The notes below the pieces were generated by a model, which did not search any database, was not told where the DNA came from, and was given only the letters and a program-made list of their open reading frames with translations. 64,000 nt of DNA. Source: Oscillospiraceae bacterium. Its GTDB lineage: Bacteria; Bacillota; Clostridia; Oscillospirales; Oscillospiraceae. This document shows, in pieces, positions 37,254 to 40,067 of this stretch. Positions within the stretch are counted from its first letter, which is position 1. Every line of letters starts with the position of its first letter. Location: contig AP025582.1 of NCBI GenBank assembly GCA_022846075.1, forward strand, positions 1,860,001-1,924,000, read 5' to 3'. A program made the translations under genes and the position numbers.

Positions 37254-37260
37254 AAAAAGG

Positions 37261-37288
37261 CCCGACGCCGAGCGTCGGGTCTTTTTTT
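37261..37288 (+). terminator. Terminator of the rhomboid-like gene
   Basis: CCCGACGC-CGA-GCGTCGGG followed by a run of T with one C. An A-run precedes it, so the convergent gene may use it too. Confidence 0.9.
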
Positions 37289-37306
37289 CCACGCAAATCC
37301 CTGGGA

Positions 37307-38341
37307 TCACAGCGCCGCGCCGTAGCGCATCAGGTGCGCCGAACGCTCCCGTGAGACCAAAAGGCGGCAGAAATAATCCTCCGGCGGAAGGCTCTCACAC
37401 GTCTCCGTTTCAGAGAACACCAGGAAATTTCCGTGGGGGATCAAAAACAGCCGGCTGCTCCCCGGGTAGCGCATGGTGAGCTGCTGATAGAGCCGCGGGG
37501 CGTACACCAGCCCCCGGCCCTCCTTTTCCCGGACCTGGATATCCCCTTCCCCGTCACTCCCAAGGGCGAGGTAAGGGCCGCACAGGTAGACCGACAGCCC
37601 CCGCCCCAAGCTGTCGATCACCGCCGGGGAAAAGCGCAGGCAGAAATCCCGCCCCAGCTCCGCGGTCATGGAGGCCGTTGCTCTCAAAGGGGCAAAGCCG
37701 TCCAAGTCATGGAGCCGGGCCAGGGCGCGGATATCGGGGGAAACCACGGTACCCCGCTCCAGGAAGCGGTTGTACAGCGTTTTATCCTTCCAGTGCTTCC
37801 AGGCAAAGGAAACTACCTCCGGCTTCCGGATGATGCCCTCCTCCCCCTCTGTTTCCAGAACCACCTCACCCGCGTTCCGTTTGAGGAAGGCCAAGTGACA
37901 GCCTTTGAACAGCGCCTCCGAGCGGTTTTGAAAGGTCTGCCGGATACGCAGATATCCCGGGGCGATCTGGCAGGGAAAGCGGTGGATCCTGGAGAGGTCC
38001 AGGCGGCGGAAGGCCTGATGGTCAAATTCCGTCTCCATCCCGTCATCCCCCAGCAGCAGCGCGCCCATTGCGGCGTCATACCAGGCGGAGATGTGCCCCC
38101 GGCTTCCCCTTTGAAGGGGGCGCAGGCAGTCGACCAGGACGCGGGAATAGACCACCCGCTTCACCCCCTGGCCGTTCACCGTGCTGCTGACCTCCAGCTG
38201 GCCGTCCTTTTCGTTGCGCAGCGCCAGCACGCTTCCATTTTTCTGCTCGTAGAGCGCCACACGCTTTTCCATGTACCCGGCAACGGAGGCGCTCAGGTAC
38301 ACATAGCTGCCGTCTTTGGAGGGCATCACGTATTCTCTCAT
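37307..38341 (-). CDS. Hypothetical protein (344 aa)
   Basis: 344 residues, no signal peptide or membrane helix. It begins MREYVMPSKDGSYVYLSASV and contains repeated beta-rich, charged segments such as KPEVVSFAWKHWKDK and GRGLSVYLCGPYLALG; the latter recalls a short swapped-hairpin AbrB-like strand, but this is not enough for a call. The ribosome site is weak. It lies between the rhomboid-like gene and the solitary recombinase and ends close to the terminator at 37261. Cargo of a small mobile unit or a chromosomal regulator are both possible. Confidence 0.55.
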   Translation of the reverse strand: MREYVMPSKDGSYVYLSASVAGYMEKRVALYEQKNGSVLALRNEKDGQLEVSSTVNGQGVKRVVYSRVLVDCLRPLQRGSRGHISAWYDAAMGALLLGDDGMETEFDHQAFRRLDLSRIHRFPCQIAPGYLRIRQTFQNRSEALFKGCHLAFLKRNAGEVVLETEGEEGIIRKPEVVSFAWKHWKDKTLYNRFLERGTVVSPDIRALARLHDLDGFAPLRATASMTAELGRDFCLRFSPAVIDSLGRGLSVYLCGPYLALGSDGEGDIQVREKEGRGLVYAPRLYQQLTMRYPGSSRLFLIPHGNFLVFSETETCESLPPEDYFCRLLVSRERSAHLMRYGAAL

Positions 38342-38468
38342 CTTTCAACACCGCTCTCCCATTTCTTTTTATTCCCACAGCGGCGGATGCGCTTCCCTCT
38401 GTCCGTTCTCCTCCCGGCATGACTAACCGCCTCTTTTTGAGGGCAGAATAGCAGGGTCCAGCAGAAAA

Positions 38469-38504
38469 ATGTGGAGGGGGTCGTAAAGGTAGAACCTTTA
38501 CGAC
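38469..38504 (+). repeat. Left 36-bp repeat flanking the tyrosine recombinase
   Basis: ATGTGGAGGGG followed by a 25-base palindrome at 38480-38504: arms GTCGTAAAGGT and ACCTTTACGAC around AGA. The same 36 bp recurs at 39736-39771 with TCT as its centre, the reverse complement of AGA. Confidence 0.92.
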
Positions 38505-38617
38505 AAAAAATAGGAACTGCCTTTGCCGCGTATGAGATATATAAGTGTATTATAACGCCTGTGAGGGGAAAAACCAACCCCTTTTTCCCTTTTTCAACAA
38601 TAGAATGGAGGTTTAAA

Positions 38618-39721
38618 ATGCGATCGATTACGGATACTGAACAGCTTTCCACTCAAATGAGGATAATCATCGATGGGCTTCAGGCCATCATGCCCCTCTG
38701 GGCGCACCCGGTTTGGAACGGGGAAAAGGAGATGACGCTGGAAGCGCTGCTCTCCCGGTGGCTTCTGCGCTGTGAGCAGGACAAAAACGTGAAGGCCACC
38801 ACCGTGAGCTGTTACGCCCAAACCGTATACCGTCAGATCATTCCCGGCCTTGGACACTGCTTTGTCAGCGAGGTCACGGATGAAAAGCTGGAAGAATTCC
38901 TGGCGGAAAAGCGGGAGACAGGACGGCTGGACGGACGGGGGGGCCTCTCCTCCAAAAGTGTTCTGGGGATCTATCAAATCATTTTGGACGCCGTCCGCTG
39001 GGGTGTGCGGGAGGGATTGGTGCCCGCCAACCCTATTCTGGGAAAGGCCAGCCCCAAGGCCAGACTCGCTGATATGCGGGTCCTGACGGAGGATGAACAG
39101 ATCCGCCTGGAGGATGCGCTCTCGGAAGAGGAACACGTCCTGGCCGTCGCGGTGTGGCTCTCCCTCTATTTAGGGCCCCGGGTGGGTGAGGTGTGCGCCT
39201 GCCAGTGGCGGCATCTGGATTATCACAGACACCGCCTGCACATCTGCGGCACGCTCCAGCGGATGCAGGTTTTGGAAGGGGGCAGGCCGACGGGGAGGAC
39301 CACCATCCAGATCGGGCCGCCCAAGAGCGCCAAGGGCAACCGCTGGCTCCCCATGCAGGATTTTCTATGGGACATCCTCATGAAGCATCAGGCAAGATTT
39401 CCGGCCATGGAAGCCGAACCGGATCAATTCATCCTCCATCAGCCGGGCGGGAAGTTTTTTGAGCCCCGGTCCGTACAGCGCTATTTTGCAAAAGTATGTC
39501 GGAAAGCGGGCGTCGCGGACGCCAATTATCACTGCCTGCGCCACACGTTCGCCACACGGGCGCTGGAGTGCGGGATGGACTATAAGACCCTCAGCGAGCT
39601 GTTGGGCCACGCCAACCTGGAAATCACCATGCGGTATGTCCACGCTCTGGATGTGATGAAGCAGCGGGAGATAAAAAAATTAAACCGAATTTCCCCTATG
39701 TCGAAAAACTTCGAATTGTGA
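38618..39721 (+). CDS. Tyrosine recombinase (phage integrase/Xer-like)
   Basis: 367 residues from ATG 38618 with GGAGG 7 bases before it. Residues ~45-140 form the SAM-like core-binding domain; the catalytic domain has Arg in LGPRVGEVCACQ, HCLRHTFATRAL (H-x-x-R) and LLGHANLEITMRYVH with the final Tyr. This complete R-H-R-H-Y set indicates activity. An N-terminal stretch of about 45 residues precedes it. Flanked by two near-identical 36-bp repeats, so it may be a minimal mobile or invertible unit. There is no excisionase gene and no tRNA next to it. Confidence 0.93.
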   Translation: MRSITDTEQLSTQMRIIIDGLQAIMPLWAHPVWNGEKEMTLEALLSRWLLRCEQDKNVKATTVSCYAQTVYRQIIPGLGHCFVSEVTDEKLEEFLAEKRETGRLDGRGGLSSKSVLGIYQIILDAVRWGVREGLVPANPILGKASPKARLADMRVLTEDEQIRLEDALSEEEHVLAVAVWLSLYLGPRVGEVCACQWRHLDYHRHRLHICGTLQRMQVLEGGRPTGRTTIQIGPPKSAKGNRWLPMQDFLWDILMKHQARFPAMEAEPDQFILHQPGGKFFEPRSVQRYFAKVCRKAGVADANYHCLRHTFATRALECGMDYKTLSELLGHANLEITMRYVHALDVMKQREIKKLNRISPMSKNFEL

Positions 39722-39735
39722 TGAACGCTTAAATC

Positions 39736-39771
39736 ATGTGGAGGGGGTCGTAAAGGTTCTACCTTTACGAC
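39736..39771 (+). repeat. Right 36-bp repeat flanking the tyrosine recombinase
   Basis: 33 of 36 bases match 38469-38504 in direct orientation. The three mismatches are the central bases TCT at 39758-39760, against AGA on the left. Because the arms are palindromic, the 25-base core here equals the reverse complement of the left core. Confidence 0.92.
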
Positions 39772-39897
39772 TTCCGTGTTCACACAAAAACCAGATCGTT
39801 CTCATAATTGTCATGGCTCATTTTTCAATCGGAACCGCGTCCATCTGCCCCTTCATGCTCCACATCCCGGTTCTTGGGTCCCATAAATATAAAATAA

Positions 39898-39938
39898 GCC
39901 CCCTTGGCAACAGGATCGTCTCTTGTTGTCAAGGGGGC
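39898..39938. other. Long stem-loop in the recombinase 3-prime spacer
   Basis: GCCCCCTTG.CAACA pairs with TGTTG.CAAGGGGGC, a 15-bp stem with one mismatch and a loop of 11 bases, followed by GTCTCTTTT. It may terminate the recombinase gene. The rest of 39722-40067 contains only the right repeat and no gene I can support. Confidence 0.6.
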
Positions 39939-40025
39939 GTCTCTTTTGCTGTTGATCCTTTGCCGAAACTATGGTTCAAGGCGATACTTAATTTCGTATC
40001 ATCAAGTTTTTTCGGAATATAAAAA

Positions 40026-40055
40026 GAGCGGGGACCACGAACGTGGTCCCCGCTC
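40026..40055 (-). terminator. Terminator of rubredoxin
   Basis: GAGCGGGGACCAC pairs with GTGGTCCCCGCTC around 4 bases; TTTTT follows on the minus strand. Confidence 0.92.
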
Positions 40056-40067
40056 CGAGGATGAACT

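Follow-up and report, generated by a model that had tools for sequence, protein, structure and literature searches.

The window analysed here, a stretch of 64,000 bp, corresponds to bases 1,860,001–1,924,000 of the one-contig 3.23-Mb genome of an Oscillospiraceae bacterium. It contains two copies of a 36-bp repeat (38469–38504 and 39736–39771), which lie 1267 bp apart and differ solely in their three central bases, AGA in the left copy and TCT in the right one. Each copy consists of an 11-bp element, ATGTGGAGGGG, and a 25-bp palindromic core, GTCGTAAAGGT-NNN-ACCTTTACGAC. The 11-bp elements are direct repeats, and the two cores are 100% complementary as inverted arms: all three centre bases mismatch in a direct alignment of the cores, and the inverted alignment gives a full match. 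The repeats, their reverse-complementary centres, and the palindromic 11-bp arms had been recognized in an earlier note on this DNA, and the present analysis confirmed them. A tyrosine recombinase gene is, as also claimed there, the only gene between the repeats (Table 1).

Both sites carry the exact half-site TCGYARAG on both arms, around the spacers GTAGAAC and GTTCTAC. Since the arms are palindromic, only the centre gives each site a direction. For tyrosine recombinases, centres that match in inverted alignment favour inversion. Because the cores are exact inverted repeats around the recombinase gene, recombination between them should lead to inversion of the unit rather than excision. The locus combines inverted sites with matching centres, as expected of an inverton, with the Hin-like layout of a recombinase gene between its presumed sites. 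Following a proposal of the earlier note, a pattern search for the 25-bp core (≤3 mismatches) was made in the whole 3.23-Mb genome; no copy was found beyond this pair.

Table 1. Features of the recombinase unit and its surroundings, in window coordinates
Feature	Position	Strand	Remarks
Likely switched gene, 344 aa	37307–38341	−	Reads away from the left site, its start lying 139 bp beyond it
11-bp element ATGTGGAGGGG, outside the left site	38469–38479		With AAAAA at 38465–38469, fixed half of the predicted OFF-state terminator
Left 25-bp palindromic recombination site, centre AGA	38480–38504		Spacer GTAGAAC (7 bp) between TCGTAAAG half-sites
Candidate outward promoter TTGGTT-17-TATAAT	38549–38577	−	9/12 matches; would read across the left site toward the 344-aa gene
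Tyrosine recombinase gene, 367 aa	38618–39721	+	Pfam PF00589, E 1.2e-19
Second 11-bp copy, inside the flipping segment	39736–39746		After inversion would face the first copy as an inverted repeat
Right 25-bp palindromic recombination site, centre TCT	39747–39771		Exact reverse complement of the left site
Intrinsic-terminator-like hairpin	39898–39938	+	Would end rightward transcripts leaving the segment
Terminator-like hairpin	40025–40056	−	Behind the convergent rubredoxin and rubrerythrin genes

Recombinase, neighbouring gene and the spot in congeners

An alternative coding start of the recombinase gene, GTG at 38471 inside the left repeat, was set aside in favour of the ATG at 38618 because the latter is preceded by GGAGG. 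Promoter scoring gave no convincing promoter for this gene. An alignment of 11 sequences, one of them the window's, showed no variation at R188, K236, H305, R308, H331, and Y340, which we take to be the catalytic positions of this kind of enzyme. A profile of 11 sequences, again including the window, identified the Int chains 6en0, 6emy, and 6emz as the nearest solved structures (best E 2.5e-33); 6EMZ is named in a paper on Tn1549 Int (PMC5871717). The window recombinase is thus related by sequence to the Tn916/Tn1549 Int. Four other recombinases of the same genome, which share 25–30% identity with it, are devoid of such repeats.

The 344-aa protein encoded next to the unit had no match in Pfam, NCBIfam, or PHROG and no solved relative at E 1. 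A predicted fold of the protein alone was discarded as useless (pLDDT 32). Matches were detected in two of 400 family genomes, its own included. A paralog in the same genome shares its strand with the gene for an SLH/SpaA surface protein of 1116 aa and lies downstream of it, separated by an opposite-strand ORF.

The earlier note had proposed to look for empty sites in related genomes. Seven congeners were examined at the window's spot. In three of them (G001, G003, G013), the rhomboid gene lies 55–80 bp from a rubredoxin or rubrerythrin gene and the spot is empty; three others (G002, G005, G007) have a gene there that we read as permease-like, and in G010 the stretch examined yielded no rhomboid gene. 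The recombinase locus is absent at this spot in six congeners, the seventh being uninformative. An empty spot was therefore found, but it does not fit the ends of the unit: the extra DNA of the window is made up of both the recombinase unit and the 344-aa gene. An integrative mobile element would have directly oriented, matching overlaps at its ends, and these are likewise missing, the centres being inverted. The spot between the rhomboid and the rubredoxin/rubrerythrin genes (window 37254–40025, L069–L074) is variable within the genus and may be empty or occupied by a permease-like gene or the putative switch.

Related loci in Clostridia

Matches at E 1e-20 were present in 32 of the 99 genomes searched (own included). 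Inverted repeats with a score of ≥16 on both sides of the gene occurred at eight of 30 loci (window included), all of them among the best 11 by E-value. A search profile of nine sequences, eight of which are repeat-bearing, matched at least 590 stretches of named genome contigs, with at least 576 encoding relatives. The best 80 of these at least 576 related loci were kept for analysis; judged from record titles, they belong mostly to Lachnospiraceae, Oscillospiraceae, and other Clostridia.

More than 500 bp were extracted on each side of 76 loci, a set that includes the window, ten earlier loci, and the near-copies L094 and L096. Inverted repeats scoring ≥16 around the recombinase were detected at 55 of the 76 loci. 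This rate is biased, since eight of the nine profile sequences carried repeats themselves and the analysis was limited to the best 80 of at least 576 loci. The score of the window is 25. Direct repeats of score ≥16 were present at nine of the 76 loci. As a control for chance, mismatched flank pairs of related loci gave inverted repeats of this score in two of 300 cases, a background lowered by the short-flank loci among these pairs. At the repeat-bearing loci, the distance from the 5′ repeat to the start of the match was 170–270 bp in most cases, and that from the end of the match to the 3′ repeat was 70–135 bp in most. Of the 15 closest relatives of the window in 400 family genomes, 11 had full flanks, and repeats at score 16 were present in three of these; the other four relatives had shorter flanks and were left out of the count.

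The following counts refer to 62 units, window included (64 units less L081 and L096, the near-copy of L094). The exact half-site TCGYARAG was present at one site at least in 29 of the 61 other units, and at both sites in 24 of them (0.24 expected from shuffled sites). The spacer between facing half-sites (≤2 mismatches each) was 7 bp long in 95 of 101 matches, window included, which fits the 7-bp core (GTAGAAC or GTTCTAC) suggested in the earlier note. The common half-site and the 7-bp spacing tie the window to this family by DNA.

The protein evidence was obtained from a quick tree of 124 rows, of which 57 have repeats, 49 have none, and 18 were left unscored. Repeat-bearing rows were clustered over the whole tree, with 18 changes versus 35.3 in shuffles and none of 500 shuffles as low. 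The branch of the window recombinase is long and falls within a supported group of 27 rows (SH-aLRT 97), 23 of which are without repeats and three unlabelled; the one repeat-labelled row is the window itself. The row nearest to it, L174, is without repeats. Since the window is tied to the family by its DNA sites and not by the protein tree, its unit may have arisen independently or have diverged.

An N-terminal GENIYKRKDGRWE-like stretch, presumably the arm-binding domain, was found in nine of the 11 aligned proteins and is missing in the window protein and L081. Pfam gave no name to this stretch. A separate test for it among the closest relatives was discarded because it overlooks variants, among them that of L005 (L078 in the alignment), where the stretch is easily recognized. 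Tandem GTCA sites (GTCA-N6..8-GTCA) were present inside the segment on the 5′ side in 37 and on the 3′ side in 23 of the 62 units (0.3 and 0.1 in shuffles), and no such pair was found in the window unit. The window unit is thus devoid of both the presumed arm-binding domain and the arm-type sites of the Tn916/Tn1549 type. For Tn1549 Int lacking its arm domain, cleavage and strand exchange persist in vitro (PMC5871717).

Promoters were scored by the number of matches, out of 12, to TTGACA/TATAAT, with dinucleotide shuffles as a background. An outward promoter (≥10/12) past the 5′ site was identified in 49 of the 62 units, a promoter toward the recombinase in eight, and 4.0 per strand in shuffles. 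Among the 59 units that scored at least 8 for an outward promoter, the −10 box ended 20–60 bp inside the site in 46. Both the layout and the outward promoter recur in many relatives. In the assembled orientation of the window, a weaker candidate promoter faces the orphan 344-aa gene. Its −10 box ends 44 bp from the site, a place like that of the family's outward promoters; its −35 box is weak, about 10% of shuffles reach 9/12, and it was absent from the list of a promoter scan tool.

The first neighbouring genes suggest an ON state for seven units (window included) and an OFF state for 21, the other 34 being ambiguous, with no clear target. A gene reads away on just one side in 28 of the 62 units. 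Neighbours of the units encode a sugar transferase (L131), Wzz (L156), AgrB (L095, L112), and a signal peptidase (L141), the neighbours of which are presumably SipW/TasA-like. Two divergent genes with a common start lie beside the L081 unit, and one of them is SLH by Pfam. In L095, L098, L105, and L112, the units precede response-regulator, kinase-like, and AgrB genes, the latter assigned by Pfam in L095 and L112 and by resemblance in L098 and L105. This suggests phase-variable quorum sensing.

Two related loci, L083 and L151, share homology over about 7.5 kb, in pieces of 65–83% identity. Both flanks are collinear and the recombinase segment is inverted, with the repeats located in the breakpoint intervals; ORFs of 170, 291, and 144 aa are found 5′ in L083, and ORFs of 170, 293, and 149 aa 3′ in L151. 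These two loci differ by an inversion. The same contrast in orientation was seen for L100 and L140 versus L117, at a protein-kinase and PP2C operon, where one flank alone aligns.

Several units display further peculiarities. L154 and L161 have two tandem copies of the recombination site per side, so that more than one inversion endpoint is possible. The 5′ flank of L104 runs to the edge of its contig and ends there in 55 bp that repeat the 3′ junction in inverted form, which is the pattern expected of an assembly break at a flipping segment. The records of L094 and L096 are named Butyricicoccus pullicaecorum and Blautia glucerasea and share 7.8 kb around a family unit at 99.99% identity, which points to recent transfer or contamination.

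No close relatives of the window recombinase were confirmed by peptide pattern in genome contigs. In a search of 300 family genomes, the core pattern (≤3 mismatches) occurred, besides the window, as one lone site each in L033 and L034. This is at chance level, since about 22 of the 300 genomes matched a reversed-pattern control. These sites (1501–1525) are palindromic and window-like, and similar secreted-protein-like genes are located directly after the site in L034 and near it in L033. The wider stretches around them contained no related recombinase and no partner site by motif. Viral contigs gave no matches. A second example of the locus did not turn up among the genome contigs, the 300 family genomes, or the viral contigs, and the integrases in all of the 5000 records listed by a plasmid search had <60% identity.

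Proposed switch and competing explanations

The 11-bp direct extension of the cores is present in the window alone among the 62 units. It was rejected as a family feature, the next best extension measuring 3 bp directly beside the core, or 8 bp with offsets. In silico, inversion of the left junction gave a perfect 22-bp stem closed by a loop of three bases, with −42.6 kcal/mol for the 61 nt; UUUUCU comes immediately after it, and the structure reads toward the 344-aa gene. The unflipped left junction can form the core hairpin of 11 bp only, with the U-run some 10 nt away, and the 25 bp between the recombinase stop and the right site contain no hairpin. Judged from these sequences, the flipped left junction is a predicted OFF-state terminator assembled by inversion. 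An internal terminator behind the recombinase was considered for all units and is not a general trait, since hairpins were present there in ten of the 62 units versus 3.5 by shuffling.

Taken together, the locus is quite probably a self-contained phase-variation switch (inverton) with a recombinase gene of its own. From the co-occurrence of gene and sites in relatives, we infer that the window recombinase acts on these very sites. The enzyme would bind the two palindromic sites and recombine them in the alignment in which their centres match, inverting 38480–39771 together with its own gene. The assembled orientation would be ON, with the candidate outward promoter between the left site and the recombinase start driving the 344-aa gene, the predicted target. 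After inversion, this promoter would read right, into the terminator-like hairpin at 39898–39938, and the recombinase gene would read left, toward the 344-aa gene. In this putative OFF state, the 11-bp elements would face each other around the site and form, with the U-run, the 22-bp hairpin that stops read-through from the recombinase gene.

The earlier note had left three options side by side: a minimal self-mobile unit, an invertible switch that flips its own recombinase gene, and a Tn916-like element with different overlaps at its ends. The reverse-complementary centres, the layout in relatives, the inverted pair of loci together with a second set that shows the contrast on one flank, and the outward promoter found across the family speak for the switch. 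The outward promoter, the likely target gene, and a role for the direct 11-bp part go beyond what that note contained. The other two options may be viewed as one, in which the 36-bp repeats are attL and attR of an integrase-only circle, or of a Tn916-type remnant, with overlaps differing per end. The direct orientation of the 36-bp copies and their asymmetric 11-bp extension agree with this, as do the Tn916/Tn1549 kind of the enzyme, its place on the tree mainly among repeat-less integrases, and the absence of the locus at this spot in six of seven congeners, the seventh being uninformative. However, the centres are exact reverse complements that mismatch at all three bases in direct alignment and favour inversion over excision, no other core exists in the genome, the accessory stretch takes in the 344-aa gene, the arm stretch and arm-type sites are missing, and a related pair of loci is inverted between collinear flanks. 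We therefore regard a mobile element as unlikely; the Tn916-like reading stands for the enzyme family and not for the element.

An inverton could also act on the recombinase itself, as a feedback on its own expression, with the 344-aa gene being incidental. The recombinase is indeed the only gene in the segment, and its transcript after inversion would meet a terminator-like hairpin, but the outward promoters are the strongest common feature of the family (49 of 62 units) and 28 of the 62 units have a gene reading away on just one side; self-feedback is accordingly rated as very improbable. Equally slight are the chances of a dead relic, a former switch locked in the assembled orientation. The long branch of the recombinase, the missing arm stretch, and the single orientation seen would suit a relic, but the reading frame is open, the catalytic positions are conserved, and both cores match each other exactly where drift would erode them.

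Beyond the switch at this locus, a broader reading is put forward tentatively, with somewhat less than even confidence. A large and so far little-described Clostridia clade of Tn916-type integrases may have been domesticated as self-inverting promoter cassettes at surface, capsule, SipW-like, and agr operons, of which the window would contain a stripped-down version, without arm domain and arm sites and with a terminator split between fixed and flipping DNA. If so, integrases that are usually read as marks of mobile elements would be built-in on/off switches in many Clostridia genomes, recognizable by inverted sites, one half-site motif, and a 7-bp spacer. The half-site motif would make a catalogue of such switches directly computable, and neighbours of the capsule, S-layer-type, SipW-like, and agr kinds would become candidate phase-variable traits. 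With the split terminator, one inversion would both remove the promoter and build an insulator.

Comparison with known systems

No description of this Clostridia family was found among the titles and abstract openings that were examined. Invertible sites near signalling genes in Clostridia are mentioned in PMC5903667 and may overlap with the window's family. According to a survey of gut invertons, invertases near invertons are mostly not regulatable by them (PMC11892184).

Tn916 and Tn1549 have 11-bp end repeats around a crossover region of 5–7 nt (PMC5871717), and the integrase subgroup keeps an N-terminal arm-binding domain (PMC8138268). These integrases move elements, whereas the window protein lacks the arm stretch and is encoded between mirror-image sites.

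The fimS switch of Escherichia coli resembles the proposed switch in promoter inversion by tyrosine recombinases and in orientation-dependent termination, which in the fimS/fimB/fimE system takes place downstream of fimE (PMC2784873, PMC6083910, PMC9993118). The terminator there is Rho-dependent, unlike the hairpin predicted for the window. The fimB and fimE genes are located outside this switch. A putative invertible fimbrial segment of Providencia stuartii, 844 bp in size, encloses a recombinase ORF (PMC5903667); compared by description, it differs from the window in its imperfect 14-bp repeats and fimbrial target.

Hin-type self-contained switches and the terminator switch of cwpV are already known. 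The hin gene of Salmonella is located inside the segment that its product flips (PMC5903667, PMC2784873), as is the recombinase gene of the window within its presumed invertible segment. Hin, however, is a serine recombinase (PMC3798978), while the window encodes a tyrosine recombinase of the Tn916/Tn1549 kind between palindromic 25-bp sites. The cwpV/RecV system of Clostridioides difficile shares with the proposed switch the inversion by a tyrosine recombinase, and it forms an OFF-state terminator through inversion (PMC2784873). In that system the promoter lies outside the segment, and recV is located away from cwpV; in the window, the segment contains both the candidate promoter and the recombinase gene, and the predicted hairpin would stop read-through from the recombinase gene itself.
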